Shown: piece after piece, positions 4,823-16,016 of the stretch | Position numbering within the stretch: the first letter of the stretch is position 1 | Layout: each line of letters opens with the position of its first letter | NCBI GenBank assembly: GCA_017694555.1 | Contig: JADIMS010000029.1 | Coordinates: 1-38,396 of the forward strand | DNA length: 38,396 bases | Reading direction: 5' to 3' | Source of the DNA: Candidatus Avitreponema avistercoris | GTDB lineage: Bacteria; Spirochaetota; Spirochaetia; Treponematales; Treponemataceae | Notes under the pieces: model-generated | What the model was told of the DNA's origin: nothing | The model's input: only the letters and a program-made list of their open reading frames with translations | Databases searched by the model: none | Position numbers and translations under genes: made by a program

Positions 4823-8362
<3,540 letters not shown>

Positions 8363-8406
8363 AAAACCTCCTGAACAGTATGGAGAGAAATGAAATAGTA
8401 GCAATC

Positions 8407-8442: not shown

Positions 8443-10011
8443 TTATACTTTGTCTGCGGCCTTTGCGGCAGAAAGCGGCAGTCCGCGTACCGCTTCAATC
8501 AGCGCCTGCGGCGGAATTCCCCACGGCGCATACACTTCCCGGGCTGCAAGGGTATGTGCCAGGGAAGCGTTCCACGCAGCTTCCGGAGGAGGGTATCCCT
8601 GTGCAAGCAGCGCGCAGACCAGCCCGGCAAGAACATCGCCGGAACCGCCTTTTGCCAGCGCCGGTACGCCGAGTGCGTTGGCATACAGCCGGACCGGCTG
8701 TCCGGGCGCCGGGCAGAATCCGGTAACCGGCACCGCGCCTTTAGCCAGCAGCACTGCGCCGGGAAATTCCGTGCAAAACGCCCGGACAAAGGAAAAGCGG
8801 CGGGCGGAAACCTCCGCCGGGGAAATCCCGTCCGGCGCAAGGCCGCACAGGACAAGAAGGGAAGCGAATTCGCCGGGATGCGGCGTCAAAACCAGCCCGG
8901 CAGGACGTTTCCGCAGTAAACCGGCAAGTCCGGGCCAGCGGAAAAAATCCGCATCAAGCACCGCAGGCAGACCGGGGCAGGCGGCAAGACTTTCCGCCGC
9001 AAAATCCAGGGCGGCATCCGGATGAGGATTTCCTTCTGCCGCGCGCAAGCCCATTCCGGCCGCCGCGGCCGTACAGGATGCAGGCAGCCGGTCCGCCGTC
9101 ATCAGCTCCGCAGGCACGGCAAACCGTCCGGTTCCGGAACCCGCATCTGCCTCCGGAAAGACCAGTGTGGTCCGTCCGCTTCCGAATGCAGAGGCGGCTG
9201 CGGCTGCCATCAATGCAGCGCCGGGTTTTCCGCCGCAGAATACCGCGCTGTGCCCGAATGTCCCTTTATGAACGTTTTTCCGGGTACGGACCGGAAGCCG
9301 CAGATCGCCGGGTTCCAGCAGGAATGCTTCCGGCTCACCCAGCGATTCAAACTGCCGGGCAGAAACGCCGAGATCCGCCACCGACACTTCCCCGGTAAAA
9401 TCCACGGCGTCATCCAAAAACAGGCAGCGTTTCAGCGCGCCCATACATACCGTCCGGTCTGCCATAAACCGGACCGGGGCGCCGGCTGATTCTCCGGCGC
9501 CGATTCCGGAAGGTACGTCACAGGCAATCCGGTACGGGCTGCGGCCTTCCGGCGTTTTTACCGCATTCATACCGGCGATACACGCCAAAAGGCTTTCCGG
9601 CGCAGGAGAACGGAAACCGCTTCCAAACAGGCAGTCAACAACCACGTCGGCAGGGGAAAAATCCGGCAAAAACGGAACACCGCAAGCCGACGCCCGGTCG
9701 CGCTGTCTGCGGCAAACCGCGGTCTTCGGCTCCGCGGCGGAAAAAACCGAAACGGCCAGCGGCCTGCCGTCAGCCAGCGTACTCCCGGAAAGCCGTCTGG
9801 CCAGCGTATAGCCGTCAGCCCCGTTTCCTCCGCTCCCGGCCACAATCAGTACGGCAACCCCGCGGAATAAAACCGGCAGGCGCGCGCAGGCATCCCGGAC
9901 AGCCTGTTCCAGCGCACAGGCTGCATTTTCCATCAAAATCTCTTCCGGAAGCAAAAACGCTTCCCCTGCCTTTTTGTCCAAAACCCGCGTATCCGTGAAA
10001 ATTTTCCGCAT
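8443..10011 (-). CDS. nnr: bifunctional NAD(P)H-hydrate epimerase / ADP-dependent NAD(P)H-hydrate dehydratase; start at ATG 10011
   Basis: N-terminal YjeF_N-like 'LPEEILMENAACALEQAV ... VLIVAGSGGNGADGYTLARRL'; C-terminal carbohydrate-kinase-like 'LTPHPGEFASLL', 'ALAKGGSGDVLAGLV'. Confidence 0.92.
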   Translation of the reverse strand: MRKIFTDTRVLDKKAGEAFLLPEEILMENAACALEQAVRDACARLPVLFRGVAVLIVAGSGGNGADGYTLARRLSGSTLADGRPLAVSVFSAAEPKTAVCRRQRDRASACGVPFLPDFSPADVVVDCLFGSGFRSPAPESLLACIAGMNAVKTPEGRSPYRIACDVPSGIGAGESAGAPVRFMADRTVCMGALKRCLFLDDAVDFTGEVSVADLGVSARQFESLGEPEAFLLEPGDLRLPVRTRKNVHKGTFGHSAVFCGGKPGAALMAAAAASAFGSGRTTLVFPEADAGSGTGRFAVPAELMTADRLPASCTAAAAGMGLRAAEGNPHPDAALDFAAESLAACPGLPAVLDADFFRWPGLAGLLRKRPAGLVLTPHPGEFASLLVLCGLAPDGISPAEVSARRFSFVRAFCTEFPGAVLLAKGAVPVTGFCPAPGQPVRLYANALGVPALAKGGSGDVLAGLVCALLAQGYPPPEAAWNASLAHTLAAREVYAPWGIPPQALIEAVRGLPLSAAKAADKV

Positions 10012-10087
10012 ATTTTCCCCACCGCAAGTATACTCCGGGTATCCGCAGATTTCCAGCCGCAAAACACCGAACGGAACGCCGGAGCGC

Positions 10088-10116
10088 TTGCCTGTCCCCC
10101 CGTATTCGGTTAAACT
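10088..10116 (+). promoter_or_regulatory. predicted promoter TTGCCT-N17-TAAACT, 6 nt before ATG 10123
   Basis: -35 10088-10093, -10 10111-10116, no SD between -10 and ATG. Confidence 0.55.
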
Positions 10117-10122
10117 ACCGGT

Positions 10123-10875
10123 ATGGATGCTACCATTGCGGAATTTGTGCAAGTCAGCAAAGTCTATCAAATTGAAAAGGTTCCGCTGCAAGCCGTATGT
10201 AACGCGTCGTTCACCATCCGCAAAGGCGAATTTGCAGCGATTTCCGGACCTTCCGGCTCAGGAAAATCCACGATCCTGAACATCATGGGACTGATTGACC
10301 TGCCGACCGGCGGAACAGTCATTCTGAACGGAACCGACGTCTACGCCGGAAAAAATTCTGTTATGGACAAAGGGCGCGTAAAAGGCGCTTTTGAGCATTT
10401 TCTGACGGATATGCGGCGGCAAAACGTCGGATTCATTTTCCAGACATTCAATCTGATTCCCGTGCTGAATGTGCGCGAGAACGTTGCCCTGCCCCTTTCT
10501 TTAGGAAAAAACGGCAACACCGACAGCATGACAAAAAAAGAACGCGACGAATGGGTGGATTTTCTTATCGACCGCGTCGGCCTCTCCGGATGGAAAAAAC
10601 ACACGCCGGCGGAGCTTTCCGGAGGACAGCGGCAGCGGGTGGCGATTGCCCGTGCGCTGGTCACCAAAGCGCCGATGATTCTTGCCGATGAGCCGACCGC
10701 AAACCTGGACTCCAAAAACGGCGACCAGATTCTTGCGCTGATGCGGAGCCTGAATGCGGAAACCGGCACAACGTTTGTTTTTTCCACGCACGACGCAAAA
10801 ATCGTTTCCATGGCCGATCATGTCATCACACTGAAAGACGGCGTTATCCAAAAAGACGAACGTATTCCGCGCTGA
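10123..10875 (+). CDS. ABC transporter ATP-binding protein, LolD/MacB-like
   Basis: 'ISGPSGSGKSTILNIMGLIDLPTGG' Walker A, 'LSGGQRQRVAIARALVTKAPMILADEPTANLDSKNG' signature/Walker B. Confidence 0.95.
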   Translation: MDATIAEFVQVSKVYQIEKVPLQAVCNASFTIRKGEFAAISGPSGSGKSTILNIMGLIDLPTGGTVILNGTDVYAGKNSVMDKGRVKGAFEHFLTDMRRQNVGFIFQTFNLIPVLNVRENVALPLSLGKNGNTDSMTKKERDEWVDFLIDRVGLSGWKKHTPAELSGGQRQRVAIARALVTKAPMILADEPTANLDSKNGDQILALMRSLNAETGTTFVFSTHDAKIVSMADHVITLKDGVIQKDERIPR

Positions 10876-10910: not shown

Positions 10911-12338
10911 TCAATAATCCATTTCCAGATAAATGGTGGAACCAAGCCGGATGGTAGGCGAGGAAATCCGGGCGCCTTCCGGATCCTTGCCGTAGTAAAT
11001 TTCTGCGGCTGTTTTCCAGCGCGCATGCGGCAGAAACCCGCTGACGATAACTCCCGGCGTAACGTCCCCGCTGCAATCCGTCAAATCGTGATTCCACTCA
11101 ACGCCTGCCGTCAGGCGTTCACCCGGCCCGATTTTGGTCACCGCGCCGACAAACGCCAGGCGCTGGGAAACCCGCGGGTCGCTGTCCGCAGGCTCCGGGC
11201 GGAAAACGTTTTGGTATTCCAGATTCACGGCAATATTGGGTTTAAAGAAATCCCACAGGCGCATAATACCGCCGACAAACGTAATGCGGTCAAAGCCTTC
11301 TGCGCGTAAATCCGCCAGACGGTAAAACGAAGCGATACGGGCCTGTGCGTGCAAATACAAATCAAAACCCAGAATTGTGCGCTTGGCTTCCAGACCGAGA
11401 ATGGGAATCCCCTGCGGTCCCGTCACGGAGGAAGGAAATTTCCGCCCGAAAATGTTGACCGTCGTACGCCCGATGCGCGCTTCTGCGGAACCGGCAAACG
11501 ACATAAACGACGGCGAAACCGGATCGGTTCCGGAATGCCCTTCCGCAGAAAGTAAAGGAAACATCGCTACAGCACTGAATGAAAACACGGAAACCGGAAC
11601 AACCAGACGCGCGGAAATGTTTTCTTTGCTGTCGTACAGGATATTCGGCTGGAAACGTCCGGTTTTATCATCATATTCGTCGTCATCGTCAAACAGGCGC
11701 ACGTATCCCCAGTAATATTGGCGTTTTCCGCCGCTGAGGTAAATCCGGTCAAAAAGCAGGTAGTCAAAAAAAATCTCGTCCAGCCCGATATTGAACGAAG
11801 GGAATTCCGTCAGGATTCTTCCCGTCAGCGAAAGATTGCGGCTGGCCCGGGCAGAAAGCGTCAGGATGTTTTCAAAATCAAAATAGCCGCTGAGGTTGTT
11901 TCCGCTTTCCGCCCAAACATAACCGAGCCCGACTTCCGTAACCAGATGGCCGGAAACCGACAATGGCGAAGATTCCGGCAACAGGGCATTCAGACCGCCG
12001 GTTGCAGGGGAACTCTTGGAAGCCGGGCCGCCGCCAGCGCCGGCTTCTTCCGCAGAAATATCTTCTGCATCTTCAAACAGGCTGTCCAAATCGCCGGTAA
12101 AACCCGTCCCTTCATCCCCGTCGTAGGGGACAAACCCGTCGCCCGGCGAACTGCCTCCGGAGATTTCAACGTCCGTCACTTCATCGAACAAACCGTCCAG
12201 CGGGTCATCCTGTGCATACAAAGCCGGCGCTGCAAAGACCGCAAGGAAAAAAAGAAATACAACGGCAAGGGGAAATCCGGCCCGGATTCCGCCTGAACGG
12301 AAAACACTGCCGCGCCGGAAAAGCCGGGAAACGCTCAT
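10911..12338 (-). CDS. predicted outer-membrane beta-barrel protein with acidic periplasmic N-terminal segment
   Basis: N-terminal signal peptide ending '...APALYAQDD', long Asp/Glu/Gly-rich segment, alternating hydrophobic/aromatic strands, C-terminal 'IYLEMDY'; 4 nt overlap with upstream LolA-like gene. Confidence 0.7.
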   Translation of the reverse strand: MSVSRLFRRGSVFRSGGIRAGFPLAVVFLFFLAVFAAPALYAQDDPLDGLFDEVTDVEISGGSSPGDGFVPYDGDEGTGFTGDLDSLFEDAEDISAEEAGAGGGPASKSSPATGGLNALLPESSPLSVSGHLVTEVGLGYVWAESGNNLSGYFDFENILTLSARASRNLSLTGRILTEFPSFNIGLDEIFFDYLLFDRIYLSGGKRQYYWGYVRLFDDDDEYDDKTGRFQPNILYDSKENISARLVVPVSVFSFSAVAMFPLLSAEGHSGTDPVSPSFMSFAGSAEARIGRTTVNIFGRKFPSSVTGPQGIPILGLEAKRTILGFDLYLHAQARIASFYRLADLRAEGFDRITFVGGIMRLWDFFKPNIAVNLEYQNVFRPEPADSDPRVSQRLAFVGAVTKIGPGERLTAGVEWNHDLTDCSGDVTPGVIVSGFLPHARWKTAAEIYYGKDPEGARISSPTIRLGSTIYLEMDY

Positions 12339-13159
12339 CGATCGCTCATCATTTCCAGATAGGCTTTTGTATAGATGGAAGGACTCTGCCGTTCAAACGA
12401 AACATTGGAAATTGAAATTTCCGTCCGTTCATTCTGGAATTTCCCGCTGATGTTTTTTCCGCGCAGCTCGTCCACAATCAGCATTTTCACCGGCACATAA
12501 TACGTGCGCTCTTCCGTCCGCAGGTATTGGTACGAAGGAACGGCAATCGTCCGCAACCGGTTCCCGGAAAGACTGTAATCTTCTTTTTTGCGTACCAGCC
12601 CGTCTTCTACCGTCACCCAGATGCGGATTTCCGGATAATCCACATCTTCCGTTTTTGCCTTCAGGACAAAACAAACGCAGTCCATTCTGCCCAGCCGGAC
12701 TTCTTCGAATGATTCGATGGCGTAATCCCGGTGATAATATTGCGGGCCAAAGTCTGAATTGTTGGCGTTGGTATTCTGGAATTTGTCTTTTGCACTGGTG
12801 AAGGTAAAACGTCCGTCCGCCGGATCGTAAAACCAAATCACGTCATTTTCCTGCAAATATCCTTTTCCGCGTTCTTTCGGCGGATTGGTCACCAAAATCA
12901 CGTATTTTGCATCACTGTCCCGGCGGTACATGACCGCCTCCGTAACGGTGCGCCCTTCCCCGGGCTTTTCCTGTACAATATGGTATGCTGCGCCGTAATC
13001 GGTTTCAGCAAAAAGCGTATTATTCTGGGCGCGGAGTAAAAGCGCGTCCGCTTCTTCCATGGTCAGTGCGGACAAAGGAGCCAAAGCGGCGGTAAAAAAA
13101 CAAAAAAAGAGGAAAACGGAAAGTCCGGAAACCCGGCGGCTGTGCAATTCGTTTTTCAT
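12335..13159 (-). CDS. LolA-like outer membrane lipoprotein-sorting protein (COG2834 type)
   Basis: Signal peptide; 'YVILVTNPPKERGKGYLQENDVIWFYDPADGRFTFTSAKDKFQNTNANNSDF' typical of COG2834 proteins. Confidence 0.85.
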   Translation of the reverse strand: MKNELHSRRVSGLSVFLFFCFFTAALAPLSALTMEEADALLLRAQNNTLFAETDYGAAYHIVQEKPGEGRTVTEAVMYRRDSDAKYVILVTNPPKERGKGYLQENDVIWFYDPADGRFTFTSAKDKFQNTNANNSDFGPQYYHRDYAIESFEEVRLGRMDCVCFVLKAKTEDVDYPEIRIWVTVEDGLVRKKEDYSLSGNRLRTIAVPSYQYLRTEERTYYVPVKMLIVDELRGKNISGKFQNERTEISISNVSFERQSPSIYTKAYLEMMSDR

Positions 13160-13224
13160 TTTTCTATTTTACCCCGTTTTTGCAAAATTTTCTACTGTGA
13201 TTCCGTGTATTCCCATGCCGGCGT

Positions 13225-14544
13225 TTATTCTGTTGCCCGGATCACCTCAGCTGGACTGATGCTTACCGTCCGGCGTATGGTAAACAAGACGGCCAACCCG
13301 GTCGTTACAAAAATCACCAGGCAGAAAACCGCAGCCGGCGCAAAATCCGGAACCGGTGCCAGAACGCCCTGGCGCAGAAAAATATCCACACCCGGAATCG
13401 AAGACAAATCCAGCGCGCCGGACATCAGGCAAAGCAGGCCGGAAAAAGCGAATCCCGCCAGACAGCCCGATACCAGCAGCAGCATGGTTTCCAAAAACAA
13501 AACCAAAGCGATACGTCCGTTCCGCATTCCGATGGACATAAAAATACCGATTTCGTTCACCCGCTTCAAAATCAGCACCCGGTATGTGCTTCCGATCCCG
13601 GCAATAATAATGCCCGAAAGCATGACCACGATGATGCTGAAAATCAGGTGCATGGCACCGGTCAGTTCCTGCAGGTCTTCCTGATTGGCGTCGAGCGTTA
13701 TCAGCGCATAGACGGGTTCGCCCCCGAATTTCGGCTGGAAAATCAAATCGTGATAAAACAGTTCCTTATCCGAAACCAGCGGATACATAGGGAAGAATTC
13801 GGAAAACGAATCCTGCAACCGCCGGATTTCCTGCTGCGGGGGAGGAGAAGGAAAAATGAACGAAATGCGGTGCGCCAGATTTTCCGGCACGCCCATCGTC
13901 CGGCGCAGGAATTCGATGTCGCAATACGCCGTATAAAGCCCCAGCACGCTGGAATCCAGGAAAATACCGCCGACGCGGAGATTGACGGAATTCAGATAGC
14001 CCTGCACCGTGCGGCAAAAAAACGTAACCACATCATTCTGCCGGACTCCCAGTTTACCGGCCAGCTGGTTGGAAATCAAAATTACGTTTGTCCCGGCCAA
14101 TTCCGGAAACGGCGGCAAAAACCCTTCCCCGCTGCCCTCCGGGGGAACATAAGTGAAACGGGAAAACAGGGAACGTTCCCGCTGGAAATCCACGCCTTTG
14201 ATAACGCGCAGAACGACTTCCGAGCCTTCATAAAACAGCGAATATGTTCTGCCGTCAAACTCCAGGCGCGCCGTAACCGTAACATCCGGCGCAACGGCAG
14301 AACGCAGGGTATCCATTGTATTTTCCGCATCCGGAACCGCAAGCCCTTGCACGCCGCCGATAAACTGCAGGTCGCCGCCGTAATAAATCCGGGCTTTATC
14401 GCGGAACGCTTCCGTCATGCCGTTCGACAAAAAGAACACAAAAAATGAAAGCCCCGAACATACGGCGCATACAAGAAAAAGCGGAAAATATTGCCGTTTT
14501 CTGGAAACCAAAGAACGGAAAGCAAGCGCCGGAACCGTCATCAT
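13225..14544 (-). CDS. FtsX-like ABC transporter permease (LolC/E-like), protein 2 of pair
   Basis: N-terminal TM, large periplasmic region, C-terminal three TMs with 'VLILKRVNEIGIFMSIGMRNGRI'; 4 nt overlap with upstream permease. Confidence 0.88.
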   Translation of the reverse strand: MMTVPALAFRSLVSRKRQYFPLFLVCAVCSGLSFFVFFLSNGMTEAFRDKARIYYGGDLQFIGGVQGLAVPDAENTMDTLRSAVAPDVTVTARLEFDGRTYSLFYEGSEVVLRVIKGVDFQRERSLFSRFTYVPPEGSGEGFLPPFPELAGTNVILISNQLAGKLGVRQNDVVTFFCRTVQGYLNSVNLRVGGIFLDSSVLGLYTAYCDIEFLRRTMGVPENLAHRISFIFPSPPPQQEIRRLQDSFSEFFPMYPLVSDKELFYHDLIFQPKFGGEPVYALITLDANQEDLQELTGAMHLIFSIIVVMLSGIIIAGIGSTYRVLILKRVNEIGIFMSIGMRNGRIALVLFLETMLLLVSGCLAGFAFSGLLCLMSGALDLSSIPGVDIFLRQGVLAPVPDFAPAAVFCLVIFVTTGLAVLFTIRRTVSISPAEVIRATE

Positions 14545-16016
14545 TCTTCCCCCTGCATCGCCACAGTAGGACTTGTGGAAAGCGCAATCCGCACGGGATA
14601 TATCCAGGCAATCACACCCAGCACCACCACAAGGAAAAACGCCTGCAAAAGGTTTTTCCCGGAAACAAACGCTTCCAGCGTGTGCCCGCCGAACAACTGT
14701 ACAAGAATCTGATTGGAAAACGATACGTCCGCCGCGTTCAGCAGCAGCGTTCCCAGCCAGCCCAAAAACGCACCGGCTATCCCGGCTGTCAGCGTAAGCA
14801 GGAACGTTTCCGTCATAAAAAGCACGGACACATAATTTCCGGAAGCGCCGGTTGCCCGCATCGTACCGATTTCTTTTGTCCGGCTCATCACGTTGATAAT
14901 CAGCGTGTTATTCACCACGATAAAGCCTGCGCCCAGCACCACCAGGATCCCGATATTGAAAATAACACGGAGCCAATACAAGTAAAGGGAAGAAATCCCG
15001 CCTGCATAACGCCAATTCACTGCTTCAACCGGCCAGCCGCGTTCAGCAAAAGACTGATTCAGGCGGCGGATAAAGGAACGGTCGGAAACGCCTTCTTTCA
15101 GCCGTCCCGTAAGAAAATGCCAGGAAGAAATACCGGCGGCGGAAAACTCCGCTGTACTGCGGCCGGCTGTCTGGGCAAGGGCTATCATTGCCGCCAATTC
15201 ATCCGCTGCATCCGCGTCTGAACCGGAGTCCGCCCCGGCAACAATATCCGAGGATTCAAAAAACAAATCGTCCAAATTAAAATCCTCTTCCGCCGGCCCT
15301 TGTTCCCCGCCGGAATAGGTTTCTTCCGCACCGGAAGAAACCGCCGCATTCAGTTCCATCAAAGAAGAAAACGTTTCCACATCCACCAGGCAAATCCGTG
15401 TCAGCGTTTCGTTTTCCATCGGATAAGAAAAAACCCCGGAAACCGGCGCGGCCCGGATGCGGAATGTCGGCCCGTCTGCAATCACAAACTGAATGGTATC
15501 TCCCGGCGCAAGCGCAAGCGTTTCCGCCATCTGCGCATTCACCAAAGCAGCGCGCTCCCCGTCTGCGAATGCGCCGCCGGAAAGAAGCGTAATCCCGTCC
15601 ATTACCGAAAGATAGCGTTCCGCTTCTACGGCAAACAGCACAACCGGAATCCGCGTCCCGGCCGCCGGATTTTCCGCAAAAGCCATACCGGAAAACTGCG
15701 GCGCAAAATGCTCCACTTCGGCGCGTTCCCGCAACAAACCGGAAATGCCGTCAAACGGAACCAGACTTTCCATCCGCGTCAGTTCACCGACGATAGGCGT
15801 TTCGTCCCCCAAAAGGGAACACGGTCTGTCGGAAACCGGACGGATCATAAAATCGCCGGTAAATCCGGAGCGGAAAACCTTTTCCACCCCGCGTTCGGTA
15901 CTGTCAAAAACCGCATTGGAAAGAACCAGAAGGGAAACAGAAAAAGCGATAAAGATGACAATCACGACGGAACTTTTCCGCGACAAAATATTTTTGCACG
16001 CCAACCGGAATAACAC
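14541..16016 (-). CDS. FtsX-like ABC transporter permease (LolC/E-like), protein 1 of pair; GTG start
   Basis: 'LACKNILSRKSSVVIVIFIAFSVSLLVLSNAVFDS', C-terminal 'NVMSRTKEIGTMRATGASGNYVSVLFMTETFLL'. Confidence 0.9.
   Translation of the reverse strand: MLFRLACKNILSRKSSVVIVIFIAFSVSLLVLSNAVFDSTERGVEKVFRSGFTGDFMIRPVSDRPCSLLGDETPIVGELTRMESLVPFDGISGLLRERAEVEHFAPQFSGMAFAENPAAGTRIPVVLFAVEAERYLSVMDGITLLSGGAFADGERAALVNAQMAETLALAPGDTIQFVIADGPTFRIRAAPVSGVFSYPMENETLTRICLVDVETFSSLMELNAAVSSGAEETYSGGEQGPAEEDFNLDDLFFESSDIVAGADSGSDADAADELAAMIALAQTAGRSTAEFSAAGISSWHFLTGRLKEGVSDRSFIRRLNQSFAERGWPVEAVNWRYAGGISSLYLYWLRVIFNIGILVVLGAGFIVVNNTLIINVMSRTKEIGTMRATGASGNYVSVLFMTETFLLTLTAGIAGAFLGWLGTLLLNAADVSFSNQILVQLFGGHTLEAFVSGKNLLQAFFLVVVLGVIAWIYPVRIALSTSPTVAMQGEE

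Follow-up and report, generated by a model that had tools for sequence, protein, structure and literature searches.

A short motif shared by an inner-membrane permease and an outer-membrane β-barrel of a Lol-like operon in Spirochaetota, with a proposed role in docking a LolA-like carrier

In diderm bacteria without LolB, it is an open question how a soluble carrier delivers its hydrophobic load to the outer membrane, and an acute one in spirochaetes, where LolB is not known and the outer-membrane insertase is undefined (PMC13078400, PMC11784454). At the inner membrane of E. coli, the Hook of LolC (residues 168-178) is the essential recruiter of LolA (PMC10865981). The nearest described relative, in design, of the system treated here is the BBJ23-29 export cluster of Borrelia, which comprises one permease as a homodimer, an Omp85-type barrel and TPR proteins; the words "motif" and "disordered" never occur in the paper on this cluster, no shared motif is described, and its authors place the Treponema homologues of BBJ25 among unrelated genes (PMC13078400). 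The present analysis concerns a 38,396-nucleotide stretch of DNA (the window; contig C145, JADIMS010000029.1) from the 1.87-Mb genome, 80% complete, of a Treponema-like spirochaete whose relatives are annotated as Treponema. It holds an operon for two type VII ATP-binding cassette (ABC) permeases, a LolA_like carrier and an outer-membrane (OM) β-barrel protein, and the first permease and the OM protein bear the same short motif in predicted disordered segments (Table 1). Among the open-licence papers searched, none describes a docking motif common to the inner- and outer-membrane parts of a Lol-like system.

The system works like Lol, yet it fails several features of LolCDE/LolDF-LolA-LolB. 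The ATPase is LolD-like, the permeases are of type VII and nearest to LolF, LolE and LolC, and the carrier belongs to the LolA superfamily. However, the permeases score 49.7 and 28.5 bits against a curated lolCE cut-off of 362 (TIGR02212), the carrier is a PF17131 and not a PF03548 protein, the OM end is a β-barrel of no known family and not a LolB lipoprotein, permease 1 is without the LolC Hook by alignment, and the genome has a separate LolCE-like pair together with a weak PF03548 match. Unlike the Borrelia cluster, the operon encodes two permeases; its barrel is porin-like by its best fold matches, and neither its four genes nor the window neighbours examined gave a TPR match. A tblastn search for permease 1 relatives on plasmids, as in Borrelia-type clusters, gave no match. 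Modules that combine an MMPL pump, a LolA_like/DUF1329 protein and an OM barrel likewise place a PF17131 carrier beside an OM-type gene, but are driven by an MMPL/RND pump, have no motif in the N-terminus of the OM protein and have a carrier without most of the ABC-specific conserved residues. The MacA adaptor and TolC-type channel of MacAB-TolC are replaced here by a LolA_like carrier and a barrel of ~18 strands. As to the LolC Hook, it too is a short element of an inner-membrane permease that recruits LolA (PMC10865981), the role proposed here for the motif; it forms, however, a folded hairpin elsewhere in the periplasmic domain and exists on the inner-membrane side alone, whereas the motif is a disordered peptide found at both membranes.

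The original prediction had proposed that LDxLFx[ED]xxD[IV] occurs three times in this operon. All three peptides were found on the minus strand, two in the OM protein and one in permease 1, and their predicted positions were correct to within three bases, the only deviation being the third copy, which ends at 12057 and not at 12060. Specificity was assessed by running the motif, in place of a protein search, as a degenerate back-translated DNA pattern over the whole genome, with the reversed pattern as control. The strict pattern gave exactly three matches, all inside the operon, and the reversed control gave none; consequently, its occurrence is not due to chance, and an equal frequency in unrelated proteins, a check that came with the prediction, was not observed. 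A relaxed, family-wide pattern had many matches outside the operon, at chance level as judged from the reversed control. The predicted consensus stood in its core and proved slightly too narrow, as the final [IV] is dispensable, position 1 admits L, I or F, and either A or S stands at position 8. The refined motif reads [LIF]-D-[DS]-[LMI]-F-x2-[AS]-x-D, with F and D almost invariant; DLDSLFEDAEDISAEE is an example of such a peptide. The single copy of the orthologous OM proteins corresponds, in the alignment, to copy 3.

Conservation was followed in 145 same-family genomes, 99 of which had relatives of permease 1, in two subfamilies (A and B); about 75 regions were examined. The gene order permease 1, permease 2, LolA_like, barrel is kept in all 12 loci annotated as Treponema and in nearly all other loci of the family, and recurs across Spirochaetota in order-, class- and phylum-level relatives. 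By inspection of the alignments, the motif is present in both linkers of all 12 Treponema-type loci, so that loss in orthologues, the other check that came with the prediction, was not found. The linkers are otherwise barely alignable, yet three residues in them never vary: F88 and D93 in the OM protein (11-sequence alignment) and F252 in permease 1. A 10-position motif model, built from the 12 orthologous loci and the window, gave medians of 18.7 bits for permease 1 (shuffled 2.3) and 21.2 bits for the OM protein (shuffled 2.5), the training loci being included in these medians; permease 2 and the LolA_like protein showed no enrichment (1.4 and -0.3, like shuffled sequence).

The motif core, [DE]x?[LIMV]F, was found in 67 of the 70 dereplicated permease inserts, against 24.7 expected on shuffling (z=11), and in 64 of the 70 OM linkers, against 27.2 (z=9.3). 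Among the outer loci it occurs in 17/18 permeases (4.2 expected) and 17/18 OM proteins (7.9 expected; this figure covers residues 20-160 and thereby some signal-peptide or barrel sequence), and both proteins carry it in 62/70 dereplicated same-family loci and in 14/16 more distant ones. A slightly wider core appears 27 times per 1000 residues in the permease insert and 1.6 times in the rest of permease 1 (~17-fold), with corresponding values of 19 for the OM linker and 3.6 for the barrel. The permease and OM logos match outside the search model as well, with D before the motif, [VIF] at position 11, an acid at 12 and E at 18. At the phylum level the operon persists with a reduced form of the motif. 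Some loci showed peculiarities of copy number: several tandem motif copies are present in both the permease insert and the OM tail of one locus (L140:2034-3581 and 5805-7565), about four in the OM tail of another (L111:5516-6982), and one genome holds the entire operon twice, nearly identical, on two contigs (L011 and L012; also G112:C13 and C18), either an assembly duplicate or a true duplication.

For 70 loci, the permease insert was further compared with the OM linker encoded in its own operon, each pair being scored by its best ungapped match of 12 residues. The mean match was 34.5, versus 30.3 in mismatched operons, and 0 of 20,000 permutations reached as high a value; permutation gave p=1.5e-4 within subfamily A and p=1.9e-3 within B. 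When the motif regions were masked the excess was largely gone (p=0.22 for A, 0.056 for B), which argues that the permease and OM copies change together. The motif version follows the subfamily in both genes, LDxLFxxAxD in A and [ED]D[DE]LFG (e.g. EDELFG) in B. Further cases of joint change are the peptide pair of L141 (Table 1) and the multiplied copies of L140 and, in the OM tail, L111. This evidence is supporting and not decisive, since shared operon ancestry can add to the signal and the low-scoring part of subfamily A gave no significant result.

The placement of the motif in disordered segments, also part of the prediction, was upheld by AlphaFold2 (AF2) models of both proteins. In permease 1 the insert is the single long disordered stretch (confidence score, pLDDT, 22-46), with a short helix at residues 248-251, on the motif; the OM tail has a pLDDT of about 25 and again a short helix at the motif. 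Permease inserts and OM linkers are strongly acidic, with median net charges of -20 and -14. The motif thereby has the features of a short linear motif: it is a short peptide in a disordered region, occurs in more than one protein and is more conserved than its surroundings. In combination with the orthologue and frequency tests, these observations strongly support the notion of one conserved motif shared by two proteins of one operon.

Alignment of the permeases bears on what the motif might do. With hhalign, permease 1 is clearly shorter than LolC at residues 167-183 and has no hairpin of Hook length, and its insert falls at a turn for which LolE has no counterpart residues; permease 1 thus appears to be without the LolC Hook. 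At the Hook site permease 2, too, falls short, though less clearly, by about 5-6 residues; its hairpin is uncertain. The same genome encodes a LolCE-like permease pair (C116:14187-17435; L151, L152), below the curated cut-off, which keeps Hook-length hairpins and has neither acidic insert nor motif; it is probably the ordinary Lol transporter of this organism. The PF03548 LolA match of this genome lies at the cut-off. A second PF17131 module (222 bits) encodes an MMPL pump (957 aa), a LolA_like protein and an OM-type protein (C152; locus L129:4874-9801), and no motif was found in the N-terminus of the latter; relatives occur in 28/45 family genomes. Residues R79, R80 and K265 are common to ABC-linked LolA_like proteins across the phylum and mostly replaced in the MMPL-linked relatives, and are suggestive, tentative candidates for the residues that accept the motif. 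One complete genome of 1.1 Mb (G020, genus g20) had no match to permease 1 or the ABC-linked LolA_like protein at the thresholds used, and retains a relative of the MMPL-type LolA_like protein at C1:855874-856518.

The most economical reading of the motif would be docking of a common partner. The LolA_like protein is a plausible candidate, because it is encoded in the same operon, is the only soluble periplasmic component, accompanies a permease in which the Hook is missing, and has conserved basic residues in its ABC-linked form. We consider it moderately probable that the motif is a short linear docking motif that recruits the LolA_like carrier at both membranes, within an extra Lol-like trans-envelope shuttle. 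Such a shuttle would consist of the LolD-like ATPase, the two type VII permeases, the carrier and a dedicated OM β-barrel, and would provide an additional Lol-like path for lipid or lipoprotein. The motif in the permease 1 insert would bring the carrier to the inner-membrane pump, standing in for the LolC Hook; the loaded carrier would then be caught at the outer membrane by the barrel, through the matching copy on its periplasmic tail. As either copy would bind to one and the same site of the carrier, the inner and outer ends would compete and the carrier would be handed over. The motif itself, its place, the predicted disorder, the conservation over the phylum, the covariation inside operons and the absence from control proteins are observed here; binding as such, the LolA_like partner, the cargo (a lipoprotein, a glycolipid or another lipid) and the direction of transport are inferred. 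To the wider proposition of a phylum-wide relay, in which matching disordered hooks on pump and barrel compete for one LolA-like site so that hand-over needs neither LolB nor a LolC Hook, we give slightly less than even credence. If true, the relay would amount to the docking code of an uncharacterised trans-envelope lipid or lipoprotein pathway, and a peptide shared by both of its ends would offer a simple and general means of specifying carrier traffic. An OM barrel that bears the docking peptide of the pump would be a candidate receptor.

Other explanations differ considerably in how well they fit these data. That acidic low-complexity linkers resemble each other by chance, or that one segment was once copied into the other without function, would agree with the acidity of the linkers and with the two copies in the OM tail of the window; yet shuffled linkers give far fewer cores (z=11 and 9.3), the core is ~17 times denser in the insert than elsewhere in permease 1, and the motif is conserved across the phylum. 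Shuffling and masking led us to reject composition as the cause of the likeness, and this account is barely credible. A cation-responsive element, with the acidic stretches binding Ca2+ or another cation, is very improbable: the permease insert is 29% D/E, but the most conserved positions include an invariant F beside L/M/I, and an A/S at position 8, and the spacing is not that of EF-hand-like metal ligands. Adaptor and degron motifs typically lie in disordered tails, as this one does in the AF2 models, and the motif could accordingly bind another periplasmic factor common to both proteins (an assembly chaperone, a protease or a component of the β-barrel assembly machinery), for example to regulate folding or turnover. 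A general chaperone or protease should have more clients, however, whereas the strict pattern matches this operon only and no other exported protein, and the OM protein linked to the MMPL pump in this genome is without it; we regard this explanation as improbable. A bridge between the two membranes, cf. MacAB-TolC and Lpt, is unlikely. Here the motif, instead of recruiting the carrier, would dock the OM tail onto the periplasmic domains of permeases 1 and 2, with the insert occupying the site in cis and the barrel tail displacing it in trans, so as to form or regulate the bridge. Both proteins belong to one operon, their flexible tails are long (75 residues and ~90), and one motif in each would account for the concerted change. 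Tail-to-tail contact is disfavoured, as both linkers are strongly acidic, and the bridge would have no need of the carrier that is always in the operon.

Docking of the LolA_like carrier, for its part, meets a number of objections. The argument is drawn from conservation, and the absence of the Hook is an alignment-based call, so that the Hook of permease 1 may be short instead of absent. The carrier is weakly basic (median net charge +5) and in the window carries -6, so that charge does not mark it out as the partner. In loci outside the class, the motif is reduced to acid-[LIM]-F in an acidic context and is less specific. For the low-scoring part of subfamily A alone the covariation is not significant (p=0.23), and kinship of whole operons, or composition, could yield part of it, as related species share both motif versions.

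The gene assignments rest on the following matches. Permease 1 (PERM1) matches Pfam FtsX (5.9e-16) and MacB_PCD (9.7e-8; PF02687/PF12704); LolF, LolE and LolC are its nearest relatives by profile (LolF 1e-20 and LolE 3e-14 in hidden Markov model searches of the PDB), and the top Foldseek matches of its AF2 model in the PDB are LolE and LolC (LolE 2e-17). Pfam and Foldseek thus both show the type VII (FtsX/LolC/MacB) architecture with its periplasmic core domain. The closest solved structure to the LolA_like protein is 3buu, of the LolA superfamily (2.8e-13). The OM protein matches no Pfam or NCBIfam family; porin and AlgE-type barrels head its Foldseek matches with a TM score of only ~0.4, and BamA/TamA is not among the 50 best, so that a general β-barrel is all that can be said of its predicted fold. 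The ATPase scores 189 bits (9e-56) against TIGR02211 LolD, under the curated cut-off of 308, and the DarD, LolD and DevA models score similarly. Its gene adjoins the operon in most loci, usually convergent beyond the OM gene in subfamily A and directly upstream of permease 1 in subfamily B and most outer loci.

Table 1. Features of the operon in the window, and motif peptides in five related loci
Feature	Position	Strand	Description
LolD-like ABC ATPase	10123..10875	+	convergent neighbour of the OM gene; PF00005 (ABC_tran) 4.9e-32
OM β-barrel protein, 475 aa	10911..12338	-	signal peptide, disordered acidic N-terminal tail 31-122, then ~18 strands (126-474); AF2
Motif copy 3, LDSLFEDAEDI	12057..12089	-	OM tail residues 84-94, ~32 residues before the first barrel strand
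Motif copy 2, LDGLFDEVTDV	12168..12200	-	OM protein residues 47-57, mature N-terminus, ~4 residues past the predicted cut between ALYAQ and DDP
LolA_like periplasmic carrier, 274 aa	12335..13159	-	PF17131 2.9e-29; proposed motif-binding partner
Permease 2 (PERM2), 439 aa	13225..14544	-	FtsX-type, without motif; Pfam FtsX 3.4e-8
Permease 1 (PERM1), 491 aa	14541..16016	-	type VII ABC permease, LolE/LolF/MacB-like; residues 223-297 form a disordered, acidic insert of 75 residues in the periplasmic part
Motif copy 1, LDDLFFESSDI	15243..15275	-	permease 1 insert, residues 248-258
Locus L130			permease 1 LDDLFGAGD and LAGMFGEADD; OM LDDMFSVADD
Locus L132			permease 1 VDDLFASPQ; OM VDDLFAVPD
Locus L136			permease 1 DIDDIFNMD; OM DLDSIFGEQPD
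Locus L141			permease 1 NEDELFGAETLVSE; OM SEEDLFGAETVTE
Locus L145			permease 1 LDAMFGTTD; OM EEDELFANPE

Motif-like peptides without the operon context were treated as chance. They include a ParB-like N-terminus in L123 ("GKGLDALFED"), a 1043-residue acidic protein (L122) and an unrelated open reading frame in L124. Two large proteins in L120 (1722-4118 and 5526-7598; G083:C23), the first a DUF7657/DUF7654 protein, share a near-identical extreme C-terminal tail, "SKSDDLDELFSNA(V/A)DVE", which is motif-like, probably by chance. Beside the operon, on the minus strand of the window, lie ordinary metabolic genes for a pyruvate:ferredoxin/flavodoxin oxidoreductase (4823-8404) and a YjeF-type NAD(P)H-hydrate epimerase/dehydratase (8443-10191).

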